The translations under genes and the position numbers were made by a program. Positions 9,127 to 62,018 of a DNA stretch of 64,000 nt are shown piece by piece (positions within the stretch are counted from its first letter, which is position 1; each line of letters opens with the position of its first letter). Location of the stretch: contig DYJD01000001.1 in assembly GCA_020723325.1 (NCBI GenBank), positions 248,001-312,000 on the forward strand, given 5' to 3'. The DNA comes from Desulfosudis oleivorans. Its GTDB lineage: Bacteria; Desulfobacterota; Desulfobacteria; Desulfobacterales; SURF-7. Under the pieces are notes generated by a model. The model worked only from the letters and a program-made list of their open reading frames with translations. It ran no database searches and was not told the DNA's origin.

Positions 9127-9157
9127 CAGGTAAAAATGCAAAAGACCAGGGGGGTAA

Positions 9158-9290: not shown

Positions 9291-9311
9291 GCGACCAAGG
9301 CTGATCAAGGC

Positions 9312-9958: not shown

Positions 9959-9988
9959 GTGGGATTTTCTTCCTCTCCTCATTTGGTA

Positions 9989-11131
9989 TTATTCATCGGC
10001 AAGAGCGGGCAAGAAAATACGGATAATCGTCCCTTTGTCCTTTTCGGATTCCGCATAGATAAAACCATTGTGGCTTTTGATAATGCCGAAAGCGGCAGCC
10101 ATCCCGAGACCACGTCCTTGGAATTTGGTTGTGAAAAACGGCTCGAACAATCGCTGTTTGGTTTCTGTATCCATGCCTTGGCCGTCATCTGCTATTGAGA
10201 GTGACGCATAATTCCCCGGCTTCAAACCAGGATATTTCAGTGCCATTTCTAGGTCGATCCTCTCCATTCCGGTGCATACTTGGATTTGACCGCCGCCTTG
10301 AAGGGCTTCAACCGCATTCGTTAAAATCGCGGAAATCGCAACGGCAAGTTGACTTGCGTCGGCTAAGATACACGCGGAATTGGGGCAAAAAATGGTGGTC
10401 AAATGGATGTTGGAACAAAGCTTTTCTTTTTGTAACCATGAAATTTCATGCTTGATAAAATTATTCAGGGCCAACGGATTGAAATTGTATTGGCCTTCCC
10501 GCGCGAATCTGAGCAATTGGTTGGAAAGATTGCACAGGCGTTTGATAGAACTATCAGTGGCGCTTTTGAATATTTTGACTCTTTCATGGTACCGCAAATC
10601 CTCCTCAAGCATTTCCACATGTCCTTTCAAGACATGCAGCGCATTGTTCAATTCATGGGCCATACCTCCTGCCAAGGTCGACAGGGACTTGAACCTTTTT
10701 GTTCTTTGCTGCAAAGATGCGTTTTTCTTGTACCCGGTGATATCGCGATGAATGCCGCTGTACCCCAAAAGGTTACCATTTGGATCAAAACTCGGCACGC
10801 CGTTTGATTCCAAAAAAACCATTCGACCGTCTCTGTGAAAGCAGATGCTTTCCATATTTGAAAAGGTTTTTTTGGAAGGCACGATATCGAAAAAACGCTT
10901 TTTCGCAGATATTGATTCCTCTTCCGGCATGAAGTCAAACGGTGTCCTTCCAATAATCTCCATGGGCTCATAGCCGAGAATATCCAGGACTCTGGGATTG
11001 GAATAAACATAGGACCCATCCGGTGATAATACCCAAACCCAATCACTGATATTGTCGGCAAAATTCTTGAACTGTAAATCATCGGCAAGGGGAATACCAA
11101 CCTGCCCTTTGGAAAGCGATTTTTTTTTCAT
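9989..11131 (-). CDS. PAS-domain sensor histidine kinase (soluble)
   Basis: A 380-residue kinase. A PAS domain (~20-130; WVLSPDGSYVYSNPRVLDILGY, with a PAC tail GIHRDITGYKK) is followed by a HisKA-type dimerisation helix with phospho-His159 (GGMAHELNN) and a HATPase_c domain (N-box TNAVEAL, DDGQGMD, GRGLGMAAAFGI). No membrane segment is visible, so it probably senses a cytoplasmic signal. It is cotranscribed with the truncated receiver downstream and follows the NarL-type regulator on the same strand. The signal is unknown. Confidence 0.88.
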   Translation of the reverse strand: MKKKSLSKGQVGIPLADDLQFKNFADNISDWVWVLSPDGSYVYSNPRVLDILGYEPMEIIGRTPFDFMPEEESISAKKRFFDIVPSKKTFSNMESICFHRDGRMVFLESNGVPSFDPNGNLLGYSGIHRDITGYKKNASLQQRTKRFKSLSTLAGGMAHELNNALHVLKGHVEMLEEDLRYHERVKIFKSATDSSIKRLCNLSNQLLRFAREGQYNFNPLALNNFIKHEISWLQKEKLCSNIHLTTIFCPNSACILADASQLAVAISAILTNAVEALQGGGQIQVCTGMERIDLEMALKYPGLKPGNYASLSIADDGQGMDTETKQRLFEPFFTTKFQGRGLGMAAAFGIIKSHNGFIYAESEKDKGTIIRIFLPALADE

Positions 11132-44205: not shown

Positions 44206-44880
44206 ATGGCTTTTATCGCACCTGACAATCTGCCTGAACTGCTGATGCGCGATATCAGCGAGAAGATCATCCGCAATGCACTGAAGCCCGGCGAGCGCAT
44301 TCTGGAGGCCAAGATCGCCGAGGAAATGGGCGTCAGCCGCAGTCCGGTGCGGGAGGCCCTGCGGATTCTGGAAAAAAACCGTCTGGTGGAGCTCGTGCCC
44401 CGCAAAGGCGCCCGGGTCACCGCCATTACCGCCCAGCATATTGAATGGTTTTACGATATCTACGAAGCCTTGTACGGCCTGGTGGCCAGAAAAGCGGCGG
44501 AATATGCCGATGACGATGATTTACGACAGATGGCCGTTGCTTTGGACCGAATCGAGCAGGCTGCGGAAAAGGGCGATGTCCATGAATATTACAACGGCAT
44601 TTTTGAATTCGCCGGAGTGGGTATGCGCGCGGCCCGCAACCCCTTGCTGGAACAAACCCTCAAAGAGCTGTGGCCCAGCAACCGGCGTATTCAATACGCC
44701 TCCCTGCAGTTCCGCAAGGACGATCTGAAACAAAATGTGCGCTTTTTCCAGGCCATGGCCAAATACGCTGCAGAAGGCAACGGCCCCATGGCGGAAAAAG
44801 AGATCCGGAAATATGCGCAGAATGAAAAGGCGTTTGCCTTGAGAATCGCCAATGGAAAAAAGATGGGGAAAAGTGACTAA
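44206..44880 (+). CDS. GntR-family regulator (FadR/FCD subfamily)
   Basis: A 224-residue regulator. The N-terminal winged HTH is IIRNALKPGERILEAKIAEEMGVSRSPVREALRILEKNRLVELVPRKGARV, and an all-helical FCD domain (IYEALYGLVARKAAEYA, FQAMAKYAAEGN) follows for binding a small carboxylate-type effector. It is divergent from the antiporter gene and immediately precedes the long dehydratase-like cluster on the same strand, so it is the best candidate for its regulator. The stop codon lies in an AGTGACTAAAGT repeat. Confidence 0.9.
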   Translation: MAFIAPDNLPELLMRDISEKIIRNALKPGERILEAKIAEEMGVSRSPVREALRILEKNRLVELVPRKGARVTAITAQHIEWFYDIYEALYGLVARKAAEYADDDDLRQMAVALDRIEQAAEKGDVHEYYNGIFEFAGVGMRAARNPLLEQTLKELWPSNRRIQYASLQFRKDDLKQNVRFFQAMAKYAAEGNGPMAEKEIRKYAQNEKAFALRIANGKKMGKSD

Positions 44881-44965: not shown

Positions 44966-46261
44966 ATGAAAGCGACGGACGGAATTTATGATGTCATCGT
45001 GGCCGGGTCCGGACCCGGCGGAGCCACGGTGGCCAAAGAAATGTCCCAGCAGGGCAAGAAAGTCCTGATTCTGGAATGGGGCGGGAACGCGCCCATTACC
45101 GGCACGGCCTTACAGTTCATCACCCAGGCCGGCATTCCGGGTAAAAGTCTGCTGATCACCAATCATCTTCTGGGCATGGTGCGCGGCATCACCACCGGCG
45201 GCAGTTCGGTATTCTATTATGGAACGGCTTTTGATCCACCCATGGACATGCTCAAGGCCCACGGCATGGATATTACCAAGGAAGTGGAAGAGATCAAGCA
45301 GGAGCTGCCGGTGAAACCCCTGGCGGATCATCTCATCGGGCCCATGGCTAAACGCATCATGGCCAGCGCCCGGGATCTGGGTTATGCCTGGAATCCCCTG
45401 CCCAAATTCGTTTTTCAGGAACGCTGTCAGCCCAATTGCTGGCGCTGCAATTACGGCTGTCCCTTCGGCGCCAAATGGAACGCCCGCATGTTCGTGAATC
45501 AGGCCGTGGATAACGGCGCGGTCCTGATCAACGGAGCCAAGGTTTTGCGGGTGTTGACTGAAAACAACCGGGCCGTGGGTGTGGAATATCAAAAAAAAGG
45601 CACACTCCATAAGGCCCATGCGCCTCAGGTGGTCATCAGCGCCGGGGGCATCGGGTCGCCCATGATTCTGCGGGCCAGCGGCATCCAGGCTGCCGGCTAT
45701 GACTGGTTCTTTGATCCGCTCATCACGGTGATGGGCACGGTGCCGGATATGGAAGGGGGCAGGGAATACCCCATGGCCGCCGGGTTGCACATGGAAGACG
45801 AGGGTTTTGTCATGACCGACATGACCGTGCCCCTGACCCTGAACCTGGTGTTCAATGCCGAAGTTTTTCGTTTCCATAAAATGACCGCCCATGCCCGCAC
45901 CTTGTCCATCATGATCAAAATCAAGGACAGCCTGGGGGGCCGGCTCACGGAAAAAGGCGGGGTGCGCAAGAAGCTGGCACCGGCGGACAAGGAGAAATTC
46001 AAGCGGGGTTTTGCCCGGGCCAAGGATATTCTGAAAAACGCCGGGGCCGATGATGTTTGGAAAAGCTGGTACATTGCGGCCCATCCGGGCGGCACCGTCA
46101 AGGTCGGGGACCTTTTGGACAGCAACCTCAAGACCCGCATGGAAAATCTGTATGTCTGCGACTGCTCGGTGATTCCTGAGGCCTGGGGCCTGCCACCCAC
46201 CTTTACCATTCTGGCCCTGGGCAAACGGCTGGCCAAACATCTGACCGGCACAAGCGCATAA
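44966..46261 (+). CDS. GMC-like FAD-dependent oxidoreductase with a four-Cys motif
   Basis: A 431-residue flavoprotein, start ATG 44966 after GGGGGAGGG. The FAD-binding loop is VIVAGSGPGGATVAKEM with the Glu of LILEWGG; GITTGGSSVFYYGTAF and the C-terminal PEAWGLPPTFTILALGKRLAKHL are GMC-type. Unusually it carries CQPNCWRCNYGC (Cys154, 158, 161, 165), which could bind an Fe-S cluster and allow one-electron transfer. The active-site His/Asn pair of alcohol oxidases is not clear (AHPGGT is present). First structural gene after the GntR regulator. Confidence 0.78.
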   Translation: MKATDGIYDVIVAGSGPGGATVAKEMSQQGKKVLILEWGGNAPITGTALQFITQAGIPGKSLLITNHLLGMVRGITTGGSSVFYYGTAFDPPMDMLKAHGMDITKEVEEIKQELPVKPLADHLIGPMAKRIMASARDLGYAWNPLPKFVFQERCQPNCWRCNYGCPFGAKWNARMFVNQAVDNGAVLINGAKVLRVLTENNRAVGVEYQKKGTLHKAHAPQVVISAGGIGSPMILRASGIQAAGYDWFFDPLITVMGTVPDMEGGREYPMAAGLHMEDEGFVMTDMTVPLTLNLVFNAEVFRFHKMTAHARTLSIMIKIKDSLGGRLTEKGGVRKKLAPADKEKFKRGFARAKDILKNAGADDVWKSWYIAAHPGGTVKVGDLLDSNLKTRMENLYVCDCSVIPEAWGLPPTFTILALGKRLAKHLTGTSA

Positions 46262-46283: not shown

Positions 46284-47744
46284 ATGGCAGCAGCAGCCAC
46301 GGCCTTGACCCAAAACGCGGCGGCCACCAGCAACCAACGCACAGTGATCTTTTTTATCCAGGATCTGCTTCAAACCCAAGAGATCCGAAAGGCCCTTGCT
46401 TTTTTCACACCGGAATTGCTGAATCTCTGGGCCGGCGATAGTACCTTCAAGACCGCCCTGGCCCGGCCCCTGGGAAAACTGATCAGTGACAGCCTGGTTG
46501 CCGGACCTCCCGCCGCCTATCCCTCCCTGGCGGACGGAAAGTTCTGGGCCGGACGCCTGGAAGCCCTTGCCCCGGAAATCGCGGACCTGCTTTTCCAGGC
46601 CGGGGACACCCTAATAGGCGGACTGGAGGAGTTGCCGGCCCAGCGCCGGGAAAAGGTCATCACGGCCCTGATTTCAGGACTCACCGACGGCCACTCCGGC
46701 GCCCTGTTGACCCGGCTGGCAAAACTGCTGGGCCGGCTCCACGAGGACAATCCCCGTTTTCTGACCGATGCCCTCCGGCCAGGAGTGCTGGGGTGGATGG
46801 AAAACACGGACTTCGGCGAACTGCGGGAGGTCATGGACAATTCCGCGGCGGACGTGGAGGCCTTTGCCGGAATGATCAATGACGTCATTTGGCAATATCC
46901 GGCCAAGCTGGTGCTGGCCCTTTCCTTTCTGCCGGATCTGGCCAACGCCGCCGGCGTGATTCTGCGGGAATCCGTGGGGCGCTTCAATCAGGTTTCCCCG
47001 GATCTGGTGGCGGACATCGTCCTGGCCCTGTTCCGCAACCTGGACGGCCACACCCTGGGCCGTTGTTTGCAGGAGTTGAGCGAACTGATCCGCAAAATTC
47101 ATACGGGCAGCGCCCTGATCGGTGATCCGGGAACGCCGCGATTCGTTCAGGATTTGTCCAACCTGGTGGAACAGGCCGCAGCTCATTTGGACGGTGCTGT
47201 GCTGGCCAAAGCCTTTACGGCCCTGGCCGAAGACGGTGCAGTGCTCCAACGGGCGCTTACCGCAGCCCTGCAATCCAATCCGGAATTGTGGCTGGAACAG
47301 CTCCGGCGCACGGCGGACCGCAAAAATCCAAAGGTCCGGGCCCTGGGCCATCGCCTGGCGGCCCTGGAAAGCCTGGCCGGGGACGACGCTGCGGCTGCCG
47401 TTGCCGACGGCGTCGCAACCCTGGATTTACAGGCAGCGGCGGAAGTGATCAATCTCACGGCGGTATTGTTCAACCGCATTCAGGACCTGCGGCCGGAAGC
47501 CTTGAGCGTGTTGGCCGGGCAATTGGCTGAAGGCTTGGATCTGTCGGCCTGCCGAACCGCGGCAGATACCATCGCAACCGCCCTGGGCAAAAAGCTGGCG
47601 CCCGTGGGCCGGGCCCTATTACCTGGGATCATCCGGGAAGCCTGCGGCTGGCTGGCCCCGGCCGACGACGAGTATGAAGCCGACATGGCGGCGGCAAGGG
47701 AAATGCTTCGTTCTGTGCTGAAGTTAGAGGCTGCGGCTTCATGA
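46284..47744 (+). CDS. Unrecognised all-helical protein
   Basis: A 486-residue protein with ribosome-binding site AGGAGG and start ATG 46284. No signal peptide, membrane helix or Cys cluster is visible. Almost the whole chain is Ala/Leu-rich amphipathic helix, with recurring blocks such as LLTRLAKLLGRLHEDNPRFL, LADAVI-like stretches and LEQLRRTADRKNPKVRALGHRLAALESL, suggesting a HEAT/ARM-like or apolipoprotein-like helical array. It sits between the GMC-like flavoenzyme and the first HgdB-like gene, all on one strand, so it is probably a structural or scaffold part of that system. I do not recognise the family. Confidence 0.7.
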   Translation: MAAAATALTQNAAATSNQRTVIFFIQDLLQTQEIRKALAFFTPELLNLWAGDSTFKTALARPLGKLISDSLVAGPPAAYPSLADGKFWAGRLEALAPEIADLLFQAGDTLIGGLEELPAQRREKVITALISGLTDGHSGALLTRLAKLLGRLHEDNPRFLTDALRPGVLGWMENTDFGELREVMDNSAADVEAFAGMINDVIWQYPAKLVLALSFLPDLANAAGVILRESVGRFNQVSPDLVADIVLALFRNLDGHTLGRCLQELSELIRKIHTGSALIGDPGTPRFVQDLSNLVEQAAAHLDGAVLAKAFTALAEDGAVLQRALTAALQSNPELWLEQLRRTADRKNPKVRALGHRLAALESLAGDDAAAAVADGVATLDLQAAAEVINLTAVLFNRIQDLRPEALSVLAGQLAEGLDLSACRTAADTIATALGKKLAPVGRALLPGIIREACGWLAPADDEYEADMAAAREMLRSVLKLEAAAS

Positions 47745-47801: not shown

Positions 47802-48962
47802 ATGGACCAAACAATGAGCAAGGCCATGTTGGAAATTTTCTATGATGCGGCTGAAAAAGTTAACAGTGCCGCCATCAATGCCTGGAAAGCCCAGGGCAAA
47901 AAAATCGTGGGCAACACCTGTTCCTATGTGCCGGCGGAAATCTTCCATGCCGCCGGGATTCTGCCTGTTCGCCTGCGGGGCATTGAAACCGACAACATGG
48001 CCGTGGGTGACACCTATTTCGGGCCCTATATCTGTTCCTTTCCCAAATGCATTCTGCAACTGGCCGGGGAGGGGCGCTTCGCTTTCTTGGACGGCGCCGT
48101 CATCACCCCCGGCTGCGATGCCATGCGCCGTCTGGACGAGTGCTGGCGCAAAGCCGGTGAAGACATCCCCGGTATCGTGCCGCCTTTTTTCTATTATTTC
48201 GATGTGCCGCATAAAACCGCACCCCACGGCCTGGACTGGTTCAAGGAGGAAATCCGCCGCCTGATCCAAGCAGTTGAACAACATTTCCACCTGTCCATCA
48301 CCCATGAAGCCCTGCGCGCCTCCATCCGGCAATACAACCAGGGCCGGCGCCTGCTGAAGCAATTGGAGGACCTGCGCGCCACACCGGAAGCAGGCATCAC
48401 CGGCGCCGACGCCTTTGCCGTGGCCGTGGCCGGCACGGTCCTGCCCCGGGAGGAATACAACTCCCGTTTGGCCGAGTTGCTTCAGGTTCTTGAACAAAAT
48501 TTGCCGGCGGTGGCCGACGGCAAAAAGCGGCTTCTCACCATGGGCAGTATCAGCGACGACATGGATTTGATCCGCCTGATCGAAGGCCATCCCAAGGCCC
48601 TGGTGGTGGCGGAGAACCTGTGCTTCGGCGTACGCTATGAAGGCCCGGAACTGGAAGAAAACGGTGATCCGGTGGCGGCCATGGCCCAGGGCTATCTCGG
48701 CAAGTCCACCTGCCCGCGCATGTACGGAAAATACCAGGAACGCCTGGACATTCTGAAACAGACCATTGCCCGGGCCAAGGTGGAGGGTGTCATCCTGCAG
48801 AACATCCGCTTCTGCGACCTGCACGGCTCGGAAAACAGCCTGTTCCAGCGCGACCTGGAAGCCATGGGCATCCCCTGCCTGAAAATCGAGCGTGAATATG
48901 GACCGCTAACAGAAAAAGGCAGAATAAAAATGCGTCTCGACGCATTTTTAAGGCAATTATGA
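47802..48962 (+). CDS. 2-hydroxyacyl-CoA dehydratase-like beta component (HgdB/BcrB type), pair 1
   Basis: A 386-residue protein of the HgdB/BcrBC family (ATG 47814, four codons in, is an alternative start). The N-terminal GNTCSYVPAEIFHAAG holds the first cluster Cys (Cys40). Other family segments are TPGCDAMRRLDECW, ENLCFGVRYEG, STCPRMYG and the C-terminal IRFCDLHGSEN. In known enzymes this subunit binds a 4Fe-4S cluster and, with its partner, takes one activated electron from an HgdC-type ATPase. The partner is probably 49167-50570. The substrate is unknown. The stop codon falls in a heptameric repeat. Confidence 0.85.
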   Translation: MDQTMSKAMLEIFYDAAEKVNSAAINAWKAQGKKIVGNTCSYVPAEIFHAAGILPVRLRGIETDNMAVGDTYFGPYICSFPKCILQLAGEGRFAFLDGAVITPGCDAMRRLDECWRKAGEDIPGIVPPFFYYFDVPHKTAPHGLDWFKEEIRRLIQAVEQHFHLSITHEALRASIRQYNQGRRLLKQLEDLRATPEAGITGADAFAVAVAGTVLPREEYNSRLAELLQVLEQNLPAVADGKKRLLTMGSISDDMDLIRLIEGHPKALVVAENLCFGVRYEGPELEENGDPVAAMAQGYLGKSTCPRMYGKYQERLDILKQTIARAKVEGVILQNIRFCDLHGSENSLFQRDLEAMGIPCLKIEREYGPLTEKGRIKMRLDAFLRQL

Positions 48963-49166: not shown

Positions 49167-50570
49167 GTGATGAGGCCCGAATTAAAAGAATACCATTATG
49201 ACTGGATGTTGTGGCGGATCCTGGCGCCGGCTTCGCGGGTGGCCGACGGCTCGGCCAAGGAACTTACCCACATGTATCGGTACGCGCCCTATTTCAAGGG
49301 GATTCTCCAGCCGATTTTGCAGGAAGGGGCGGTGGGCAGCACTTTTTTGAAGATGATGACCCGCTATATGGAAAATTTGAATACGGCCCATCGCCGGGGC
49401 AAGAAGATCGCCATCACCACCTTCTGCTTTTCGCCGGCCATTTGTTATGCCCTGGACGTGGTACCGGTGACCCTGGAAGTGGTCACGGCCGTGGGCGGGC
49501 TCATGTGGAAACGGGGTACCTTTGACTACCTGGACTATGCCTGTGAGATCGGCTTCACCGAGACCTCCTGTTCCTCTCAGCGGGGCGCCCTGGGGGCCTA
49601 TCTGGCCGGCCTGGGAGAGGAGATCGACATGGTGCTCTGCGACACCCCCGGCATCTGCGACACCAATGCCAATGCCTTTGCCTTTGCCGCCGCCTATCTC
49701 AAGAAGCCCTTCTACCATTTGAACTATCCCCAGGGCCTTGCAGACCAGCGCACGGAAAAATACCATGTGGATGACTACAAAGCCATGATCCGGTTCATGG
49801 AAGAGCATTCCGGCAACCGTCTGGACCAGGACCGGCTGCGAGAGATCCTACGGGAGGTGGACCGCCAGGACGCCCTGCTGGCGGATCTGGAGGAGCTGCA
49901 TCGTCTGATCCCCGCACCTTTGCCGCCCATTTATAATGTGTTCAACTATGTGGGCCGCTTTTTGTTCTCCGGATCACCGGAGTACACCCGTCTGCTGGAA
50001 CAGATGGTTAAAAAAGTCCGGGAAAACGTGGTGGCCCGACGTTCGGGCCTGAATTCGGGCAAAGAAAAACTGCGGGCCTTTCTGTGTTACATCGATCATT
50101 ATTCCCTGAACTGGAATTTCTGGAACTGGATGGACACGCGCGGCATTGCCCACATGGGCGGGATCCTCTCCCGGGGCTTCCGGGACAATGCCTGTTATAC
50201 GGCGGAGCTTCCCGGCTCCAGCTATAGCCTGGATATGGGCAGTTTGGAAACCATGCTGGACAGCATCGCCCAGATGAACGCCCGCCTGCCCATGGTGCGC
50301 TCCATCCGCGGGCCCTATGACCAGCCCAACATGTGGCTGGAGGAATCCCTGGCCGTGGCCAAAATGTTCCAGGCGGATTTCATGATTTACAACGGCACCC
50401 CCGGCTGCCGCAACACCTGGGGCATGGTGAAACCCTTTGCCCGGGAAATCGAGAAACACGGGTATCCGGTTCACATCATGTATGCCGATGCCTTTGACGA
50501 CCGGGTGGAATCCTGGGCCGCCACCCAGGAACGTTTGAACGAGTTTTTACAGGTGAGGGGGTTGTTATGA
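49167..50570 (+). CDS. 2-hydroxyacyl-CoA dehydratase-like alpha component (HgdA/BcrC type), pair 1
   Basis: A 467-residue protein; start ATG 49167 or the second Met. Family features are ITTFCFSPAICYALDVVPVTLE (Cys87), FTETSCSSQRGALGAYLAG (Cys135), VLCDTPGICDTNANAF (Cys158, Cys164), and the C-terminal YNGTPGCRNTWGMVKPF. Three of these Cys would bind the subunit's Fe-S cluster. It overlaps the first activator gene by ATGA, so enzyme and activator are translationally coupled. No CoA-transferase accompanies it, unlike ordinary dehydratase operons. Confidence 0.85.
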   Translation: MMRPELKEYHYDWMLWRILAPASRVADGSAKELTHMYRYAPYFKGILQPILQEGAVGSTFLKMMTRYMENLNTAHRRGKKIAITTFCFSPAICYALDVVPVTLEVVTAVGGLMWKRGTFDYLDYACEIGFTETSCSSQRGALGAYLAGLGEEIDMVLCDTPGICDTNANAFAFAAAYLKKPFYHLNYPQGLADQRTEKYHVDDYKAMIRFMEEHSGNRLDQDRLREILREVDRQDALLADLEELHRLIPAPLPPIYNVFNYVGRFLFSGSPEYTRLLEQMVKKVRENVVARRSGLNSGKEKLRAFLCYIDHYSLNWNFWNWMDTRGIAHMGGILSRGFRDNACYTAELPGSSYSLDMGSLETMLDSIAQMNARLPMVRSIRGPYDQPNMWLEESLAVAKMFQADFMIYNGTPGCRNTWGMVKPFAREIEKHGYPVHIMYADAFDDRVESWAATQERLNEFLQVRGLL

Positions 50571-51343
50571 CGCTGACAGCCGGATGCGATGTGGGGTCCC
50601 TGACCGCCAAGGCCGTAATCATGCGGGACGGCCGCATTATCGGAGCCCAGGTGGTGAAATCTCGGGCCAAACCGGAAATATCCGCAAAGGAGGCCATGGC
50701 CGGGGCCTTGACGGCAGCCAGAGTGGCTTTGGAAGATGTGGCTGCCTGTGTGGGCACGGGTTACGGCCGGGAGAAGATTCCGTTTGTGAAGGAAGTCGTC
50801 TCGGAAATCGCCTGCCATGCCAAAGGCGCCAAATGGCTGGTGTCCTCGGCCCGCACGGTCATCGACATCGGCGGCCAGGATTGTAAGGCCATGCGCATCG
50901 ACGAGCACGGCGAGGTGATTAAATTCATCACCAACGACAAATGCGCTTCGGGCACGGGCCGTTTCCTGGATGTCATGGCCCGGGTCCTGGGGATCAGTGT
51001 GGATGAACTGGGCCGGCTTTCCGCCGGGGCCAAGCAGCCCGTGACCCTGGCCTCCACCTGCACGGTCTGGGCCCAGGCCGACGTGATCAAATATCTCAAT
51101 TCCGGAATTGCAGTGGCGGATATCGGCGCCGGCATCAACATTGCCATGGCCAACCGGGTGGCCATCCTGGCCAATTCCGTCAAAGCCGAGCATGACGTGT
51201 GCATGACCGGCGGCGTGGCCAAAAACAACGGCGTGGTTCAGACCCTGGCCCAACTCCTGGGCCGGCGCATCACGGTGCCGCGCAAGGCTGATCCGCAACT
51301 GGCCGGGGCCATCGGCGCCGCCATAATTGCAGGGCAATTATGA
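50567..51343 (+). CDS. HgdC/BcrA-type ATP-dependent activator 1
   Basis: A 258-residue actin-fold ATPase of the BadF/BadG/BcrA/BcrD family. The phosphate loops are GCDVGSLTAKAVIM and TVIDIGGQDCKAM; the cluster-bridging Cys are Cys126 (NDKCASGTGRFL) and Cys165 (ASTCTVWAQADV), at the positions known from HgdC. The helix-cluster-helix arrangement is intact and GGVAKNNGVV closes the fold. A homodimer would hold one 4Fe-4S cluster and inject an electron into the 49167-50570 enzyme on ATP hydrolysis. Its stop lies in a heptameric repeat. Confidence 0.92.
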   Translation: MTLTAGCDVGSLTAKAVIMRDGRIIGAQVVKSRAKPEISAKEAMAGALTAARVALEDVAACVGTGYGREKIPFVKEVVSEIACHAKGAKWLVSSARTVIDIGGQDCKAMRIDEHGEVIKFITNDKCASGTGRFLDVMARVLGISVDELGRLSAGAKQPVTLASTCTVWAQADVIKYLNSGIAVADIGAGINIAMANRVAILANSVKAEHDVCMTGGVAKNNGVVQTLAQLLGRRITVPRKADPQLAGAIGAAIIAGQL

Positions 51344-51510: not shown

Positions 51511-52305
51511 ATGTTTTTTGTAGGATGCGACGTAGGTTCCCTGACCGCCAAGGTGGTGATCATGGATGAAGAAAGGATCGTGGCCTGGGAGTTGCAACAG
51601 GTGGGCACCAGTCCCGGCGACGCGGCAGAGGCGGTTCTGGCCGCAGCCCTTTCAAAAGCCGGGCTGGCTCGGAACCAGATCGACTGCGGGGTGGGCACAG
51701 GTTACGGTAAGGCCTGGATTCCCTTTGTGCAGCGCACGGAATCGGAGATCACCTGCCATGCCAAAGGGGTGCGCTGGCAGATTCCTTTGGCCCGCACGGT
51801 GATCGACATCGGCGGGCAGGATGCCAAGGCCGTGCGCCTGGATGCCGACGGCAAGGTGGTGCGCTATATTTACAACGACAAATGCGCCTCGGGCACGGGC
51901 CGGTTTCTGGAAGTCATGGCCGAGGCCATGGAGGTGAACCTTGCCGATATGGGCACCCTGGGCTGCAAATCCACCTGCAAGATCCCCATTTCCAATCAGT
52001 GCGTGATCTTTGCCGAAACCGAGGTAGTTTCCCTGATCAACGAAGGCCGGGAGATACCTGACATCATCAACGGGTTGCATCATGCCCTGGCCGGCCGGGT
52101 GGCCTCCCTGGCCCGCAGCATCGGCGTGGAGCAAACCGTAGTAATGAGCGGCGGGGTGGCGAAAAATCAGGGGGTGTTCCAGGCCCTGGCCGAGCGCTTG
52201 GACCTGCCCATGCAAGCTGTGGAGGCCTTTGATCCCCAGCTCAGCGGGGCGGTGGGGGCGGCGCTGTTGGCAAAAAACAATTATGAATTAGGAATTACGA
52301 ATTAG
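51511..52305 (+). CDS. HgdC/BcrA-type ATP-dependent activator 2
   Basis: A 264-residue activator, RBS AAGGAGG. GCDVGSLTAKVVIM and TVIDIGGQDAKAV form the nucleotide site; bridging Cys are Cys125 (NDKCASGTGRFL) and Cys164 (SNQCVIFAETEV). It has two additional Cys just before the second ligand (LGCKSTCKIP) that activators 1 and 3 lack. The last ~8 residues (YELGITN) and the stop are encoded by a heptameric repeat, so the natural C-terminus is probably LLAKNN or shorter. Confidence 0.9.
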   Translation: MFFVGCDVGSLTAKVVIMDEERIVAWELQQVGTSPGDAAEAVLAAALSKAGLARNQIDCGVGTGYGKAWIPFVQRTESEITCHAKGVRWQIPLARTVIDIGGQDAKAVRLDADGKVVRYIYNDKCASGTGRFLEVMAEAMEVNLADMGTLGCKSTCKIPISNQCVIFAETEVVSLINEGREIPDIINGLHHALAGRVASLARSIGVEQTVVMSGGVAKNQGVFQALAERLDLPMQAVEAFDPQLSGAVGAALLAKNNYELGITN

Positions 52306-52309: not shown

Positions 52310-52322
52310 AAAGGAAAGTGTG

Positions 52323-53636
52323 ATGGGTCATGTAGTGGGGAAGGACATTTATCGCCGGTTGGGAGCGAAAATTGACGGGCTGACCTTGCGGGCGCCCTGG
52401 AGTCCGGCTTTTCATGAACTGCTGAAAAGCCTGTACAGCGAGGAGGAGGCGGATCTGATCGTCAAGATGCCCTTTGGCATGTCCCCCATGGAACGGATCG
52501 TAAAGATCACCGGCTTGCCTGAGAAGAAATTACGGCCTGTGCTGGAGAGTCTGTGCGCCCGGGGCTTGGTGATCGATTTTTGGATGAACGAAGCATATCA
52601 TTACGGACCGTCGCCTTTGGCCATCGGTATTTTTGAATTCACCATGATGCGCACCGGGGGCGGCTTGAACCACAAGGGTTGGGCGCGCTTGTTCCATGAG
52701 TATATGCAAGGGGAAGGGGCGGTGTATGCCGCCAACTTCGGCCAGGGCGAACAGATCTCCCTCATGCGCACCTTGCCCCATGAGGAGGCTTTTCTAAACA
52801 GACCCCATGTGGAAATTTTGGATTATGAAAAAGCTTCGGCCATCATTGCTGCGGCAGACAAATTTTCCATCGGCGTCTGTTCCTGCCGGCATGAGAAGCT
52901 GCATGTGCACGCTAAAACCTGTGATGTGCCCATGGACAACTGCACGGCCCTCGGCATGTCCGCCGACTTCCTCATCCGCAATCATTTGGCCCGGGAAGTT
53001 ACCCGCACGGAAATGCTGGAGAATCTGGCCCGCTCGCGGGAACTGGGATTGGTGCTCAACGCCGACAATGTCCAAAAGAATGTCAACTTCATCTGCAATT
53101 GCTGCGGCTGTTGTTGCAATGTGCTCCAGGGCCTCAACCGGTACGGCTATGAAAATGCCGTGGTAACCTCCAGTTTCCTAGCCGAACCCCAGGCGGAAAC
53201 CTGTGTCGGTTGCGGCAAATGTGCCAAAGCCTGCCCCATCAACGCCATTGAGATGCAGCCTGTTGCAACCGGAGAAAAGCGCAAGCGCAAAAAAGCCCTG
53301 GTGGATACGGATATTTGTCTGGGCTGCGGTGTATGCGCCCTGAAATGCGAAAAAAAGGCCATGCATTTGCAGAAGCGCAAAAAACAGGTGCTCCATCCGG
53401 AAACCACTTTCCAAAGGGTGATTCTGCAATGCCTGGAGCGCGGCACCCTTCAGAACCAGATTTTCGACAATCCTGCCGGCCTCTCCCAGAATTTTCTGCG
53501 GGGTGTGGTGGGCGGATTCCTGAAGCTGCCGCCGGTGAAAAAAGCCCTGATGAGCGAGGTCCTGCGTTCCCGTTTCCTCAAGGTCATGGAAAAGGGCGTA
53601 AAATTGCAGGGCAAGGGCTGGGCTTTGGAGATTTGA
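52323..53636 (+). CDS. Multi-cluster 4Fe-4S protein with N-terminal winged-helix-like domain
   Basis: A 437-residue protein; the ATG at 52323 has AAAGGAAA upstream (GTG at 52320 is an alternative). Residues ~1-85 look like a winged helix (FHELLKSLYSEEEADLIVKM, MERIVKITGLPEKKLRPVLESLCARGLV). The centre has CSCRHEKLHVHAKTCD...NCTALG, and ICNCCGCCCNVLQG. The C-terminus is a two-cluster ferredoxin: CVGCGKCAKACP (first Cys ~294) and CLGCGVCALKC (~332). It is the obvious internal electron donor to the activators. Fourteen bases separate the previous stop from the GTG. Confidence 0.85.
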   Translation: MGHVVGKDIYRRLGAKIDGLTLRAPWSPAFHELLKSLYSEEEADLIVKMPFGMSPMERIVKITGLPEKKLRPVLESLCARGLVIDFWMNEAYHYGPSPLAIGIFEFTMMRTGGGLNHKGWARLFHEYMQGEGAVYAANFGQGEQISLMRTLPHEEAFLNRPHVEILDYEKASAIIAAADKFSIGVCSCRHEKLHVHAKTCDVPMDNCTALGMSADFLIRNHLAREVTRTEMLENLARSRELGLVLNADNVQKNVNFICNCCGCCCNVLQGLNRYGYENAVVTSSFLAEPQAETCVGCGKCAKACPINAIEMQPVATGEKRKRKKALVDTDICLGCGVCALKCEKKAMHLQKRKKQVLHPETTFQRVILQCLERGTLQNQIFDNPAGLSQNFLRGVVGGFLKLPPVKKALMSEVLRSRFLKVMEKGVKLQGKGWALEI

Positions 53637-53639: not shown

Positions 53640-54371
53640 ATGGAATTGTTTTCCGCCCAATTCAGGCAAATCAGGGAGTATTTATTGCAGGACCGTGCCA
53701 TGGGGCTGGTTGAAATTCCGGCGCCTTCGAACCTGGAGTGGCCGGCCGGTCTGGGCCGTAATCTGATTTTATCCCAGGACACGGCCGTGGAGTTGGGCAA
53801 TCCCAGGGAGGGCTCCGCCTCCTTTTTGATGTGGACCGAGCAGGCCCAGGAGGTCCGGGACGGCCGCATCCGGCTCATGGGCCCGGATCTTCCGGAAAGC
53901 CGGGGACGAAGTCTGCCCTTTGGCAAGGTGGTGATGATCAGGGTCCGGGGATTTACGCCGGACAACACCTACCCGCGTTACCGGGAAATGGAAGCCCTGC
54001 GCTACGAGCTGGATCTCAAGGGCTATATGCTGCGGGCCGTTTCCCAATATCAGCGGGAATGGAGCCGGGTGTCCCGGGAAGCCCTGGACCAGGGGTTTTC
54101 CTTTGCGGTCCTGGGCCGGGCCGTGATCAACGGCTTTCATGGATTGGAATACGTCATCGGCGTGGAAGTTCTGTTCGTAACCCAAGCCCGGGAACAGGTG
54201 GCGACCCTTGCCGCCATCGGGGACCAGGCCGGCCGGATCATCGCCGCTATGAACAAGATGAGCGTGGAAATCTCCTTTGATTGCACTGCTTGTGAATATA
54301 ACGATGTCTGCGGCGACGTGGCGGATCTGCGCTCCATGCGCAAAACCATGCAAACGGCGGTGGGCGTATGA
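53640..54371 (+). CDS. Acetyl-CoA synthase/CdhC-like (CODH beta family) small protein
   Basis: A 243-residue protein aligning by eye with the central part of acetyl-CoA synthase/CdhC: LSQDTAVELGNP, VRDGRIRLMGPDL, LPFGKVVMIRVRGF, LKGYMLRAVSQYQREWSRVSREALDQGFSFAVLG and VEVLFVTQ. The C-terminus carries CTACEYNDVC (Cys215, 218, 224), a possible metal site. The remaining ACS domains, including the full A-cluster domain, are missing. It overlaps the CooC-like ATPase by ATGA, so the two proteins probably act together. Whether it binds nickel, an Fe-S cluster or a partner protein is inference. Confidence 0.7.
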   Translation: MELFSAQFRQIREYLLQDRAMGLVEIPAPSNLEWPAGLGRNLILSQDTAVELGNPREGSASFLMWTEQAQEVRDGRIRLMGPDLPESRGRSLPFGKVVMIRVRGFTPDNTYPRYREMEALRYELDLKGYMLRAVSQYQREWSRVSREALDQGFSFAVLGRAVINGFHGLEYVIGVEVLFVTQAREQVATLAAIGDQAGRIIAAMNKMSVEISFDCTACEYNDVCGDVADLRSMRKTMQTAVGV

Positions 54372-55144
54372 CGGCAGGCTCAACCGGGAAAACCACCAGG
54401 GTGATCGCCGTGTGCGGCAAGGGCGGGGTGGGCAAAACTTCCGTCAGCGCCGTATTGACAAGGCTGCTTTCCAACCTGCCGGACAAGAAAGTCCTGGCCG
54501 TGGATGCGGACCCGGCCTTTGGACTGGCAGGCGCTCTGGGGATTGCCGTCAGCCGCACCGTGGATCAGATCCGCAACCGATTGATCGAGCGCATTCAGCA
54601 GGGCCGGGCCGGGGACCGCAGGGAGATCATCGCCGGCCTGGACTATGAAGTGCTGGAAGCTTTGGAAGAGCGGCGCAATATTGCTTTCCTGGCCATCGGC
54701 CGGCCGGAACTGGAAGGCTGCTATTGCCAAGTGAACCAGTTTCTGAAGGAGATCATCGCCTCGGTTCATAAGGCCTTTGACTATGTAGTCATCGACGGCG
54801 AAGCCGGAATCGAACAGGTCAATCGCCGGGTGATGGAAAAGGTTACGCATTTGTTATTGGTGTCCGATGCATCGGCCAAGGGGCTGCGGGTGGCGGAGAC
54901 CATTCAAATCGTGGCGGCCCGGGCGGTGGGGTATGAGCACAGCGGTTTGATCCTCAACCGCCTCCGCGGCCGGGATGAGCAGGCGCGGCTCCGCCTTCCC
55001 GAGACGCTGAAGGTGCTGGGCTGGATTTCGGAAGACGACATGGTGCGGGATTTTGATATTGCCGGCAGCAGTTTTTTGAATATGCCCGACGGTCCCATGA
55101 TTCAAAGCCTGGGGGTGTGTCTTTCCAGGTTCGGACTACTGTAA
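54368..55144 (+). CDS. CooC/AcsF-like MinD-family ATPase
   Basis: A 258-residue deviant-Walker ATPase: P-loop VCGKGGVGKTSVSAVL, VLAVDADPAFGLAGALG, VVIDGEAGIEQVNRRVMEKV. The diagnostic feature is GRPELEGCYCQVNQFLKEI with the CxC pair Cys118/Cys120, which in CooC binds Zn or Ni at the dimer interface. CooC inserts nickel into CO dehydrogenase and AcsF into acetyl-CoA synthase. Its coupling to the ACS-like gene suggests a metal-cofactor maturation role here. No CODH gene is in the window. Confidence 0.85.
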   Translation: MTAGSTGKTTRVIAVCGKGGVGKTSVSAVLTRLLSNLPDKKVLAVDADPAFGLAGALGIAVSRTVDQIRNRLIERIQQGRAGDRREIIAGLDYEVLEALEERRNIAFLAIGRPELEGCYCQVNQFLKEIIASVHKAFDYVVIDGEAGIEQVNRRVMEKVTHLLLVSDASAKGLRVAETIQIVAARAVGYEHSGLILNRLRGRDEQARLRLPETLKVLGWISEDDMVRDFDIAGSSFLNMPDGPMIQSLGVCLSRFGLL

Positions 55145-55160: not shown

Positions 55161-56291
55161 ATGAATTTTGATGCCTGGCAGGCGCAGTTGCAACTGGTGC
55201 TCGACCAACCCGAAAATGTCTTCATAGAGCGGGCCACGGCCGCCGGAAAAATCCCCCTGGGGTATACATGCAGCTACGTGCCCCGGGCGCTGCTTTCCCT
55301 GGACGGACTTGTACCTGTGCGCCTGCGCGCCCCCGGTGTTGCCGGAACTGAGATCGCCGACATCTACCTGTCCAATGTGATCTGCTCCTATACCCGCAGT
55401 TTGTTGGAATATGCCCTGGACGGCCGCTACGGATTTTTGGGGGGCTGGGTGTTTGCCGCCGGCTGTGATCACATCCGGCGCCTGCTGGACAATCTCGCCT
55501 ATTTGGTAAAACCGGCTTTCGTACACATGCTGGATGTGCCCCACCGCCAGGGGCAGGCGGCTTTGGACTGGTATGTGGAGGAACTCGCCGTTTTATGCCG
55601 CAAATTGAATGCGACCTTTGGGGTGGATACCGGTAACGCGGCTTTGTCCAAGGCCATTGCGCGGCAAAACCGGTTCAACCAAAAACTCCAAGCCATTGCC
55701 GAACGCAGAAAGGAAAAACAGCCGCCTCTGAGCGGGGTGGAGTTCCAGCGGATTATGATCGCCGCCCTTTGCGGCGGGCAGGAGGAGATGCTGGACGACC
55801 TTGAGAAAATGGCTGCGGCCCTGAAGGAACGTAAGATACGCAAACCCTATCGGGCCCGTTTGCTATTGGTGGGCGGCAATATCGACGACATTGCTTTTAT
55901 CCAGGTGTTGGAGTCCTGCGGCGGGATGGTGGTTGCCGACCGCTTTTGCACAGGTTCAATTCCAGGTATGGCTCTCATGGACGAGGAGGGCGATCCCTTG
56001 CAGGCTATTGCCCGGCACACCCTTTCCCGCATTGCCTGCCCGCGCATGATGGAGGAGTTGGATGTCCGCCTCCAGGCCATTCTGCAGCTCAAGGCGGAAT
56101 ATACCGCCGACGGGGTGATCATCGAGAATCTGAAATTCTGCGACATCTGGGGCATCGAATCCGCCCTGCTGGTCCAGGGGCTGCGGGATGCCGGGGTGCC
56201 GGTCCTGCGCCTGGAGCGGGATTACCGTCTTTCCGGTGAAGGGCAGTTGCGCACCCGGGTTCAGGCTTTTTTGGAAAGCATGGGAAAATGA
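55161..56291 (+). CDS. 2-hydroxyacyl-CoA dehydratase-like beta component (HgdB/BcrB type), pair 2
   Basis: A 376-residue HgdB-family protein, RBS AAGGTAGG. GYTCSYVPRALLSLDGLVPVRLR (Cys37), NVICSYTRSLLEYA, AGCDHIRRLLDN, ADRFCTGSIPG, IACPRMMEE and LKFCDIWGIES follow the family pattern and parallel those of 47802-48962, although overall similarity is modest. It overlaps the next gene by ATGA and forms pair 2 with it. Confidence 0.85.
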   Translation: MNFDAWQAQLQLVLDQPENVFIERATAAGKIPLGYTCSYVPRALLSLDGLVPVRLRAPGVAGTEIADIYLSNVICSYTRSLLEYALDGRYGFLGGWVFAAGCDHIRRLLDNLAYLVKPAFVHMLDVPHRQGQAALDWYVEELAVLCRKLNATFGVDTGNAALSKAIARQNRFNQKLQAIAERRKEKQPPLSGVEFQRIMIAALCGGQEEMLDDLEKMAAALKERKIRKPYRARLLLVGGNIDDIAFIQVLESCGGMVVADRFCTGSIPGMALMDEEGDPLQAIARHTLSRIACPRMMEELDVRLQAILQLKAEYTADGVIIENLKFCDIWGIESALLVQGLRDAGVPVLRLERDYRLSGEGQLRTRVQAFLESMGK

Positions 56292-57733
56292 GGGAAAGTT
56301 CAGCTATAATGGAGCTGCCGAAAAAGGATTACTGGAGCAGTCTGCTTGGCGATGCCGCGGTCTACGCCCGCTATTCACTGGTCAACTGGTTCAAGATCAT
56401 CCTGCTGGTGATCAAACACGGGCCTTGGGACACCATCCGGGATCTCCGCCGCTATCCGTGGATTCTGGTCCTGCTCCAGGTCAACCGTCTGTTATGGCGC
56501 TTCATCCGGGGCCGCAAGGGCCGCTATCGCAAGGCCTCGGCCATGGTCATGGCCGACATCGTGGCAGCCGTGATCCGCATGATGGACGATGTTTTTTTTA
56601 AGGGCGACCGCCTGGTGATCCATGAGGACATGATACCGCCGGAGATCCTGCGGGCCATGGGTCTTGTGCCCTTCATGGCCGAACTCCTGGGCATCCTCAT
56701 GCCCATGATCCGGCCCCATGCCGTAGAAGCCTATATCGATGCCTGCGAAAACGCCGGCATTCCGCCGGACATCTGCAGTCTGCCCAAGAGTACCATGGGC
56801 CTGACCCTCAAAGGCCATCTGCCGCCGGCCCTGGCCATCGTCACCTCCAATCTGCCCTGTGACGGCGGCATGTCCTCCTATGCCCTGATTGAGCGCGAAC
56901 TGAGTCTCCCCACCATCCGCCTGGACATCCCGTATCGATTCAACAACGAAAAAGCCGTGGCGTATTTCAGCCGGGAATTGCAACGCCTGATCGCCTGGCT
57001 GGAGGAGCATACACCCGGACGCATGGACTGGGAACGGTTGCGGGAGATCTGCGAGGAGCGCAACCGCATGGCCGCTCATGAGCTGGAATTGTGGGATCTG
57101 GTCCGGCTGCGACCCTCCCCCTTGGCCGGCGAAGCGGTCTGGCTGAGCCATATGTGGAATTTCAACGTCACCCCCGGGGCCAGGGAAGGGACGCACATTT
57201 TCCGCGACATGGTGGCCATGGGAAAACAGAATCTGGAAGAGGGGATCGCCTCCATTCCAAACGAGCGCTTCCGCGCCTTGGTGTGGAATCCCCCCACCAT
57301 TCACTTCATCGACATTTACAACTGGGCGGAAAAAGCCTACGGGATTTCCCTGATCATGGACAGCATGACCTTCAACCGTCTCGGGCCCATCGACACCGGC
57401 AGCAACGAGGCCATGCTGCGGGGCCTGTCACAGATCATCATGGCCGGCCCCATGGCCCGCCACACCCGCGGCCCGGCCGAGAACTATCTCAACGACATCT
57501 TCCACATCACCAAACATTTCAACATCGACATGGTCTGGGTGGCCGGCCACATCGGCTGCAAGAACACCCAGGCCCTAAACGGCATGCTGCGGGAACTCTG
57601 CCGGGAGCAAGGCCTTCCGCTCCTGATCATCAATTACGACCTGTCTGACCCGCGCATCGTGTCCCGGGAAGGCATTATCGAGCAGATCGATCATTTCATG
57701 GAGAACATTATGAAAGCCAAGAGGTTGAAATGA
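56288..57733 (+). CDS. Divergent 2-hydroxyacyl-CoA dehydratase-like alpha component, pair 2
   Basis: A 481-residue protein. An N-terminal ~95-residue extension rich in Arg and aromatic residues (ARYSLVNWFKIILLVIKHGP, LVLLQVNRLLWRFIRGRKGR) precedes an HgdA-like core. Candidate cluster ligands are Cys153 (DACENAG), Cys163 (PDICSLPKS) and Cys191 (NLPCDGG). The C-terminus has AGHIGCKNTQALNGML and LLIINYDLSDPRI, close to the family. It is diverged from the pair 1 alpha component, so a different substrate or a non-dehydratase role is likely. It overlaps both neighbours. Confidence 0.78.
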   Translation: MRESSAIMELPKKDYWSSLLGDAAVYARYSLVNWFKIILLVIKHGPWDTIRDLRRYPWILVLLQVNRLLWRFIRGRKGRYRKASAMVMADIVAAVIRMMDDVFFKGDRLVIHEDMIPPEILRAMGLVPFMAELLGILMPMIRPHAVEAYIDACENAGIPPDICSLPKSTMGLTLKGHLPPALAIVTSNLPCDGGMSSYALIERELSLPTIRLDIPYRFNNEKAVAYFSRELQRLIAWLEEHTPGRMDWERLREICEERNRMAAHELELWDLVRLRPSPLAGEAVWLSHMWNFNVTPGAREGTHIFRDMVAMGKQNLEEGIASIPNERFRALVWNPPTIHFIDIYNWAEKAYGISLIMDSMTFNRLGPIDTGSNEAMLRGLSQIIMAGPMARHTRGPAENYLNDIFHITKHFNIDMVWVAGHIGCKNTQALNGMLRELCREQGLPLLIINYDLSDPRIVSREGIIEQIDHFMENIMKAKRLK

Positions 57734-58536
57734 ACGGAAAGTCGGACAAGCAATACTACGGCGGATGCGACGTGGGCTCCACCACGGGAAAGGCCGTGAT
57801 TTTAAACGGCGCCGGCATTGTGGCGTCGGCCGTTGTGCCCAGTGAAATCGATCCGGCCCAGACCGCTGAAATCGTCCTTCGAGAGGCCTGCCGTCAGATT
57901 GAGGGGTTGCGGGACATCCGGGACTTGTCCTGCCTCATCGGCACAGGCTACGGCCGCAACGAGGTGCCCTTTGCCCATGAAAACATCTCCGAGATCAGTT
58001 GCCATGCCATGGGAGTGCATTTTTGCGATCCTTCTATCCGCACCATCATCGACATCGGCGGCCAGGACGTCAAAGGCATTGCCCTGGATGAAGGAGGCGG
58101 CGTGCTGGAATTCGCCATGAACGACAAATGCGCGGCCGGCACCGGACGTTTCCTGGAAATGATGAGCCGCATCTTCCGCATGGAACTCGACCAGTTCTCC
58201 GAACTCTCCCTCAAGGCTGAGCGGGTGATCCCGGTGACTTCCCAGTGCAGCGTCTTTGCCGAAACCGAAGTCATCAGCCTGCTCAGCAAACGCAAACCCG
58301 CGGCGGACATCGCCGCCGGCATCCAGGCCGCGGTGGCCAAACGCAGCTTCAGCCTGCTCAAAAAGATCGGCATCCGTCCCCGGGTGACCATCACCGGCGG
58401 CTGCGCCAAAAACAAGGGGCTGGTGACCGCCCTGGCCGGCTTTCTGCGCCAGGAAATCCGTCCGTTGCCTGTTGATCCCCAATTGATGGGCGCCCTGGGC
58501 GCGGCCGTGACGGCGCGACTGCGTGCGGGTAAATAG
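57730..58536 (+). CDS. HgdC/BcrA-type ATP-dependent activator 3
   Basis: A 268-residue activator: GCDVGSTTGKAVIL, TIIDIGGQDVKGI, bridging Cys134 (NDKCAAGTGRFLE) and Cys173 (TSQCSVFAETEV), GGCAKNKGLV. It overlaps the pair 2 alpha gene by ATGA, so it should serve pair 2. Last gene of the cluster. Confidence 0.92.
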   Translation: MNGKSDKQYYGGCDVGSTTGKAVILNGAGIVASAVVPSEIDPAQTAEIVLREACRQIEGLRDIRDLSCLIGTGYGRNEVPFAHENISEISCHAMGVHFCDPSIRTIIDIGGQDVKGIALDEGGGVLEFAMNDKCAAGTGRFLEMMSRIFRMELDQFSELSLKAERVIPVTSQCSVFAETEVISLLSKRKPAADIAAGIQAAVAKRSFSLLKKIGIRPRVTITGGCAKNKGLVTALAGFLRQEIRPLPVDPQLMGALGAAVTARLRAGK

Positions 58537-60991: not shown

Positions 60992-61076
60992 ATACTCGAA
61001 GGGGCTTATGAACCATTAAGACAAGAAGTATCGATCAGGATATAATTAAATTGGTTAATTGAACAGGAGGTGGGAT

Positions 61077-62018
61077 ATGCCTCGAAGCGCGCGTATCGTG
61101 ATTCCGGATGAACCGGCGGTTTATCATATCATGTCCAGAACGGCCTTGGACGGATTCCCGCTGGGGGATGTGGAAAAGGATTTTCTGGTGGATCTGATTC
61201 GGCGGCTCAGCCGGATTTATTTTGTGGAAATTTTTGGTTATACAATAATGTCTAATCATTTCCATTTGCTACTTAGAATGCTGCCGGAAAAATCCATTTC
61301 GGACGAGGATGTCAAAAAGCATTATGAGAGATTGTACGGCAAGGACAAGATCTTTCTGGACGGACAGATTCCCTTTCTGAAACACAAATGGACCAGCCTC
61401 TCCGAATTCGGCAAAGAACTGAAGCAGACTTTCTCGCGCTATTACAACAAACGCCATGGCCGGCGTGGCTTTTTCTGGGGTGACCGCTTCAAAAGCCTGA
61501 TTGTGGAGAAGGGCGAGACCCTGATCAACTGTCTGGCCTATATCGACCTCAACCCGGTGCGGGCCGGGCTGGTGGCCAAACCCGAGGATTACCGCTGGAA
61601 TTCCATCGGCTACCATGCTCAACAGAAAAACAAGGGGGATTTTCTTTCCCTGGATTTCGGCCTGAAAGAATTCGGTGTGCTGGACGCCAAGGAGCGTTTG
61701 CGCCTTTACCGAAAATTCTTGTACGAAGCCGGCGCCATTAAGAATGGTGAAGGGAGAAGTGTGAAGGGGAAAAAGGGAAAAGGCATAGAGCAGAAAACCG
61801 TGGAAAAGGAGCGGAAAAAAGGCTACCGCTTCACCCGCACGGACCGGTTTCTTCATCGCACACGTTATTTCACCGATTCCGGCATCATCGGCTCCAAGGA
61901 TTTTGTGCGGCAGCAATACATGCGCGTCAAGGGTCTATTCCAATCCGCCAAGGAGAAAAAACCCAAACCCATCTCGGGTTTGAAAGGGCTTTACTCTTTA
62001 AAGCGCCTTACAGAATGA
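61077..62018 (+). CDS. REP-associated tyrosine transposase (RAYT, Y1_Tnp family)
   Basis: A 313-residue protein, start ATG 61077 with AGGAGG at 61065-61070. The HUH metal motif is in IMSNHFHLLLRM; the catalytic Tyr is probably in INCLAYIDLNPVRAGLV; FFWGDRFKSLIVEKGE is typical of the family. A basic C-terminal extension (~100 residues; KKGKGIEQKTVEKERKKGYRF) is longer than in minimal IS200 transposases. RAYTs are single-copy domesticated transposases thought to mobilise REP hairpins. The tandem repeat upstream and the 41-bp repeats on both sides are candidate substrates. Confidence 0.9.
   Translation: MPRSARIVIPDEPAVYHIMSRTALDGFPLGDVEKDFLVDLIRRLSRIYFVEIFGYTIMSNHFHLLLRMLPEKSISDEDVKKHYERLYGKDKIFLDGQIPFLKHKWTSLSEFGKELKQTFSRYYNKRHGRRGFFWGDRFKSLIVEKGETLINCLAYIDLNPVRAGLVAKPEDYRWNSIGYHAQQKNKGDFLSLDFGLKEFGVLDAKERLRLYRKFLYEAGAIKNGEGRSVKGKKGKGIEQKTVEKERKKGYRFTRTDRFLHRTRYFTDSGIIGSKDFVRQQYMRVKGLFQSAKEKKPKPISGLKGLYSLKRLTE

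Follow-up and report, generated by a model that had tools for sequence, protein, structure and literature searches.

The methyl and CO ligands of acetyl-CoA synthase (ACS; AcsB/CdhC) bind to a nickel that is coordinated by a CGC motif in the C-terminal domain. AcsF reportedly inserts nickel into ACS, and the nickel site of CooC is a CxC pair. According to the accessible part of PMC6006190, CooC has been described either as the source of nickel for CODH or as an ATP-dependent chaperone; its reported effect on CODH concerned the nickel and not the iron content, an observation that speaks against involvement in plain Fe-S assembly. The available text of PMC12289521 places CoA in contact with the ACS middle domain and describes a contact of the same domain with CoFeSP, the latter from a model that fits a map; the accessible portion of PMC11474084 holds nothing on the role of this domain. 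For BzdNO, the six [8Fe-9S] ligand cysteines of BzdN are named in the available passages of PMC11971306, and the word 'maturation' is absent from the main text of that paper in its accessible form. Nickel-chaperone-type genes outside the known nickel enzymes are also found in the putative isoprene reductase operon of Acetobacterium wieringae, which has its own (PMC10134865, as far as its accessible text goes).

The window, which is the whole stretch of 64,000 nucleotides analysed here, carries a locus that resembles each of these systems in part. A small ACS-like protein is encoded in an HGD-D operon; it has the fold of the ACS middle domain but lacks the N-terminal domain, the A-cluster domain past the first Cys residues and the CGC motif, and, in contrast to ACS, it lies in HGD-D operons and is present also in genomes without detected ACS. 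The adjoining ATPase shares with CooC and AcsF the P-loop KGGVGKT, the CxC pair and a clade against MinD/ParA-type proteins, whereas it differs from them in belonging to a group of its own, located beside HGD-D operons instead of CODH/ACS. With BzdNO and the double-cubane cluster protein the locus has in common six [8Fe-9S] cysteines (BzdN-like), three [4Fe-4S] cysteines (BzdO-like) and BcrAD-type activases, but it has Asn or another non-His residue at the position of His131, its scores lie far below the BCR and double-cubane cut-offs, and its HGD-D pair travels with an ACS-like protein and a CxC ATPase. The A. wieringae operon differs in carrying HypA/HypB, and no CooC-type ATPase or ACS-like protein is mentioned in the accessible text of PMC10134865. 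Among the papers listed by searches of the open PMC library, judged by title and abstract, we recognised no description of this gene combination, which is weak evidence of absence since most subscription journals lie outside that library; nor is the gene set described in the available parts of PMC7000372 or PMC13056359. All parts except a helical protein belong to known families, and their combination, together with its presence without detected CODH/ACS, appears to be new. Here an ACS domain and a nickel-insertase-type ATPase are found away from CO chemistry and form a dedicated set with reductases that are ATP-driven and work at low potential.

Gene row and its recurrence

The features of the locus are as follows.

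44206-44880, + strand: GntR/FCD regulator (Pfam FCD and GntR, each E 1.5e-15), a possible regulator of the operon
44966-46261, + strand: GMC-type flavoprotein oxidoreductase, head of the gene row (Pfam GMC_oxred_N E 1.8e-20)
46284-47744, + strand: all-helical protein (AlphaFold2 pLDDT 79.6; 20 relatives in fetched loci)
47802-48962, + strand: HGD-D subunit 1 (D1), BzdN-like (Pfam HGD-D E 1.8e-85; predicted [8Fe-9S] site)
49167-50570, + strand: HGD-D subunit 2 (D2), BzdO-like (Pfam HGD-D E 7.4e-49; three Cys, predicted [4Fe-4S] site)
50567-51343, + strand: BcrAD/BadFG-type activase 1 (Pfam E 1.3e-54; CoA_E_activ 245 bits, cut-off 125)
51511-52305, + strand: BcrAD/BadFG-type activase 2 (Pfam E 2.1e-54; CoA_E_activ 226 bits)
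52320-53636, + strand: ferredoxin-like protein with 4Fe-4S motifs (Pfam Fer4_7 E 2.4e-10), a possible electron donor
53640-54371, + strand: small ACS-middle-domain protein (243 aa, ATG start; Pfam CdhC E 5.2e-11)
54282-54311, + strand: CxxCx5C motif of the small protein (C215, C218, C224; present in 47/48 family members)
54368-55144, + strand: CooC/AcsF-type P-loop ATPase (258 aa, ATG start; assigned by PDB match and tree)
54719-54727, + strand: CxC motif of the ATPase (Cys118/Cys120, CYC; aligned to CYC of CooC 3kje)
55161-56291, + strand: HGD-D subunit 3 (D3), BzdN-like (Pfam E 1.4e-87; predicted [8Fe-9S] site)
56288-57733, + strand: HGD-D subunit 4 (D4), BzdO-like (Pfam E 2.4e-58)
57730-58536, + strand: BcrAD/BadFG-type activase 3 (Pfam E 9.9e-55)

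The stop of the small-protein ORF overlaps the start of the ATPase ORF in ATGA (54368-54371), as the first-pass annotation had read it. The helical protein matches no Pfam or NCBIfam family and no PDB fold at E <= 0.001, and its DFGE and YPxK motifs are invariant. Relatives of the GMC oxidoreductase are present in several small-protein loci, and relatives of the ferredoxin-like protein adjoin a minority of the 48 small-protein genes. Elsewhere in the window, at 61059-62018, an ORF resembles by eye a REP-associated tyrosine transposase.

The small protein belongs to a family of which 48 members were collected: that of the window, another copy encoded by this genome, 12 found in related genomes, 33 in a wider phylum sample and one on a Dehalococcoidia contig; sampling reached the window's own phylum, this Dehalococcoidia contig and one gut contig. 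A further copy at G142:C21 stands outside the 48-member set, and a copy in G262 outside all neighbourhood counts. Within the phylum sample, a match at E <= 1e-13 was found in 28 of 395 genomes, this genome (G000) included. When the window proteins were compared by tblastn with the 48 small-protein loci, HGD-D genes were found near the small protein in 41/48 loci, activases in 40/48 and a CooC-type ATPase in 35/48, and the link to HgdAB-like enzymes that the first-pass annotation had drawn thereby recurs well beyond this genome. Among the 29 loci flanked by 5 kb or more of sequence in both directions, the counts were 26/29, 26/29 and 24/29, respectively, and a single one (L036) had neither HGD-D nor ATPase. 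One frequent arrangement is D1-D2-ACT1-ACT2-small protein-ATPase, after which D3-D4-ACT3 often comes next. The second gene row of this genome (L004; G000:C11:14000-33000, positions 1381-10108) contains the GMC and helical proteins, D1, D2, two activases, the small protein and the ATPase, with neither the ferredoxin-like gene nor D3-D4-ACT3; upstream of it lies a gene that by eye resembles a sigma54-type regulator. A different order, ATPase-D3-D4-ACT3-small protein, is found in the human-gut contig MT837370.1 (L126, 86-5256), an unverified record labelled 'Bacteriophage sp.' and the sole small-protein match in the phage collection. It looks like a mislabelled bacterial contig, and the gene set would thus be present in the gut; a LysR-like gene (by eye) is also encoded there. 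We rejected a mobile or plasmid origin, as there was no plasmid match at E 1e-5 and two pattern scans gave none in viral contigs, and likewise a defence system, for which the small protein had no match and the ATPase weak ones (E 1.6e-4 or worse).

A stand-alone ACS middle domain

The first-pass annotation had likened the 243-residue protein to central ACS/CdhC segments, and had named in advance an HMM search against CdhC/ACS models and a structure prediction locating the retained domain as ways to check this. Both agree with it. Pfam CdhC matches residues 43-183 at E 5.2e-11 (43.1 bits, cut-off 24), and four NCBIfam ACS models match at E 1.2e-11 to 1.5e-7, with scores far under their full-length cut-offs and the middle part alone covered; the best PDB sequence matches are solved ACS structures (E 2e-6). 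An AlphaFold2 model built from an alignment of 47 sequences, the window's own included, reached pLDDT 92.2 and pTM 0.89, and all 23 Foldseek matches of this model at E <= 0.001 were ACS chains. VIA-align superposed it, from residue 29 to about 210, on 1mjg_M 316-554 and 1oao_C 316-505 (Z 18.8; 182-184 residues aligned, rmsd 3.4), so that the fold of the middle (A2) domain is present, and the first non-ACS row in the list had Z 3.4. The protein is a genuine ACS relative, consisting of the ACS middle domain and a short CxxCx5C tail.

When aligned jointly with 18 ACS proteins from relatives, the small proteins stop short of the C-terminal domain, and the rest of the A-cluster domain and the CGC motif are absent from them; CGC is present in the six ACS sequences of this alignment that were inspected. 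A methyl- or CO-binding role, one of those put forward in the first-pass annotation, appears unlikely, because the CGC nickel motif and its domain are missing, while the proposed metal chaperone or cofactor carrier is retained as a candidate. The tail cysteines that it had pointed out are kept in all family members but one (L035), which is cut by a contig end. The tail CxxC falls on the first Cys pair of the A-cluster, so that the small protein keeps the start of this site; the third tail Cys is likewise placed at a Cys column of ACS, though across a large gap, and this placement is uncertain. The complete cubane set of ACS (Cys residues 506, 509, 518 and 528) is not matched: 30/48 small proteins have the three Cys alone, 17/48 have a fourth, located just upstream of CxxC, and the remaining one is the truncated member.

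Family members are 195-278 aa long (n=48), the shortest being a contig-end truncation. Seven residues are common to the small protein and ACS (Gly81, Pro82, Asp83, Gly128, Met130, Trp141 and Arg143), and eight columns are invariant among 47 small proteins (E51, L52, G53, P55, G81, G128, M130 and R143). A FastTree of the middle domain sets the 48 small proteins apart from the 18 ACS proteins (support 0.73) and, among the small proteins, places the 17 four-Cys members together with weak support (0.51). On the evidence of these sequences, the stand-alone ACS middle-domain proteins are a separate family with invariant residues of their own and not a recent ACS remnant; the wording of a 'reduced' ACS module, used at first, was misleading. 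The small protein does retain only about one third of the ACS length, as would a chance-kept remnant of a decayed ACS gene, yet the clade apart from ACS, the eight invariant columns and the conserved operon make such decay extremely improbable, and we rejected it. The small proteins also bear on how ACS domains came together. Two deviant genes were seen: the divergent small protein of L106 (9758-10489), in which the nearly invariant Trp141 is replaced by Arg, and the small-protein gene of L047 (3-812), which lies at the end of a contig and contains an in-frame TGA.

The genomes that carry the small protein differ in their ACS and CODH content. This genome encodes a full-length ACS (contig C18, a 745-aa open frame) and three CODH genes over cut-off, and the earlier description of the pair as being 'without CODH' holds for the locus and fails for the genome. 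Of the 39 genomes that carry the small protein, ACS exceeds the cut-off in 18, four have partial matches (G001, G099, G126 and G140) and 17 have no ACS-model match besides the small protein (G345: none at all), two of these 17, G008 and G173, being less than 90% complete. CODH was over cut-off in G000 and G004 only, of 17 genomes tested (G000, G001, G004 and 14 genomes of families f83 and f85). These 14, which are 94-100% complete, have no ACS or CODH over the curated cut-offs, which argues against acetyl-CoA synthesis with CODH and a corrinoid protein; weak CODH matches in eight of them (25-31 bits, in 543-712-aa frames) may be hybrid-cluster proteins. Surroundings were fetched for 13 of the 14, and in every one (13/13) at least one copy lies beside an ATPase; G215 has one copy with an adjacent ATPase and one without.

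The linked ATPase and reductases

The best PDB match of the 258-aa ATPase is CooC 3kje (E 5.5e-15), to whose CYC the Cys118/120 pair, already recognised in the first-pass annotation, is aligned. The deviant Walker A motif KGGVGKT and the CxC pair are both present, and CxC is kept in 32/32 neighbouring ATPase ORFs examined, a count outside which stand the ATPases of L077, L079 and L106, known from tblastn alone. A phylogeny against CooC, AcsF and MinD, likewise proposed at the outset, was built from 69 proteins, with CooC orthologues retrieved by the 3kje sequence and six MinD/ParA-type proteins of this genome as outgroup. The AcsF reference came from Acetoanaerobium, where an operon contains two CxC ATPases, one beside CODH and the other beside ACS-operon genes; the latter was taken as AcsF-like. 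Loci L113, L123, L141, L154 and L160 yielded no usable P-loop frame and are not part of the trees; duplicates (L125, L152 and L159) were removed, and the ATPases of L077, L079 and L106 also lie outside them. The 63 CxC ATPases group together against the six MinD/ParA-type proteins (support 96.7/99). The 33 that are linked to small proteins group together with weak support (80.3/53); 32 of the 33 do so at 99.9/100, and the branching of this group relative to CooC and AcsF is poorly supported (62.7/46). In an earlier FastTree the supports were 0.935 (linked group) and 0.807 (all CxC ATPases); L125, counted there under the MinD label, is the C11 ATPase, the same as that of L004. The window ATPase is 25-30% identical to CooC and the AcsF-like examples, and by this phylogeny it belongs to the CooC/AcsF group, within a group of its own.

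The HGD-D enzymes beside the pair were compared with BzdN and BzdO. All six [8Fe-9S] cysteines of BzdN have aligned counterparts in D1 and D3, and this set is kept in 50/50 BzdN-like subunits picked from linked loci; HadC and MbdN are without the full set. In D2-type subunits the three BzdO cluster cysteines are kept in 30/30 cases and BzdO His131 is replaced by Asn in 30/30, while in D4-type subunits the first two cluster cysteines are kept in 33/33, the third in 28/33, and the His131 position is Gly in 22/33 and never His (n=33). Scores against the NCBIfam models fall below their cut-offs, with D1 at 148.7 of 421 bits (BcrC), 134.4 of 453.8 (BzdN) and 170.1 of 350 (double_cubane), and D3 at 173.1 of 350. 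Since His131 is replaced in all D2 and D4 subunits, the linked enzymes are assigned as BCR-I/HgdAB-like with a predicted active site that differs from that of BzdO.

This genome has 17 HGD-D matches, six of which lie in its two small-protein loci, and the small protein therefore serves a subset. Five of the seven BzdN-model matches that lack a neighbouring small protein in this genome also have the six cysteines, and the [8Fe-9S] cluster therefore does not require the pair in general; with only two small copies in this genome, we ruled such a requirement out.

Possible roles of the pair

Beside the computed family, fold, cysteines, operon link and occurrence without detected ACS or CODH, we infer the identity of the metal, the direction of its transfer and the docking of the small protein. 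Our main reading, to which we assign a probability of about 0.42, is that the ATPase would load a metal or cluster onto the Cys site of the small protein, and that the charged protein would then serve the BCR-like pair. The ATPase would play for the small protein the part that AcsF plays for ACS: via its CxC site it would deliver a metal, nickel being first in line, or finish a cluster at the small protein's Cys site, after which the charged protein may act on the BCR-like catalytic pair as an accessory subunit or cofactor carrier. The docking face would be the middle domain, the part of ACS that touches CoA and partner proteins.

The distribution of the two Cys forms bears on this proposal. 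The ATPase adjoins 27/30 loci of the three-Cys form and 8/17 of the four-Cys form (Fisher p 0.004; p 0.006 to 0.022 when short-flank loci are left out), although the Fisher test is blind to relatedness and the two forms are largely two clades, so that one event may have been counted repeatedly. The greater frequency of the ATPase beside the three-Cys form fits the loading of an open site. Several observations count against the main reading: an adjacent ATPase is absent from 6/13 four-Cys loci with flanks of at least 3 kb, a few small proteins occur apart from HGD-D genes (L036 and L046 among them), and the six-Cys site is present in the unlinked matches.

In the chief rival proposal, which we consider somewhat less probable than the main reading, the reductase has the small protein as a permanent third subunit. 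Its ACS-type domain would help to bind CoA or a CoA thioester, its Cys site would carry a [4Fe-4S] cluster that passes electrons among ferredoxin, activase and catalytic pair, and the ATPase would be a maturation factor or an ATP-dependent conformational chaperone only. The small gene stays with the D genes in loci that have no adjacent ATPase (L104, L084, L078 and L083) and follows directly 3' of an activase or D gene in many loci; the fourth Cys of 17/48 members suffices for a normal [4Fe-4S] cluster; and Gly128, Met130, Trp141 and Arg143 are common to ACS, whose middle domain contacts CoA. However, 30/48 members have only three Cys, the HGD-D subunits bind CoA themselves, and neither BzdNO nor the double-cubane protein is known to need a third subunit of this kind. 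None is mentioned for BzdNO in the accessible passages of PMC11971306.

The frequent position of the small gene next to activase genes, together with the middle-domain residues common to ACS, would also suit a sensor of CoA thioesters or of redox state, in which a CoA-type pocket and a cluster gate the ATP-consuming activases and the ATPase is a nucleotide switch instead of a metal inserter. We regard this as quite improbable, since a plain switch would not need the nickel site that is conserved in the ATPases examined. A further reading, in which the pair supplies nickel or another heterometal to a BCR/HgdAB-type reductase or an attached cluster, would add an ATP-driven radical reductase that depends on nickel to the nickel enzymes known so far, and seems unlikely. 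Should the pair handle nickel, a hitherto unrecognised nickel enzyme is indicated; should it handle Fe-S clusters instead, some of the double-cubane enzymes would have an accessory system dedicated to them.

The enzymes encoded around the small protein vary: GMC oxidoreductases, acyl-CoA dehydrogenases, an alcohol dehydrogenase and others lie beside different copies, so a single substrate for all copies was rejected and the substrate may differ between them. The acyl-CoA dehydrogenases beside some copies are distantly like cyclohexanecarbonyl-CoA dehydrogenase. In L036 (9613-10332), the small protein is 53% identical to that of the window and has no operon partner, its neighbours being recBCD-like by eye, and in L046 (2173-5453), a 5.6-kb contig on which the small protein has no HGD-D genes beside it, the neighbours by eye are a methyltransferase-like gene and a fused uroporphyrinogen methyltransferase/synthase-like gene.
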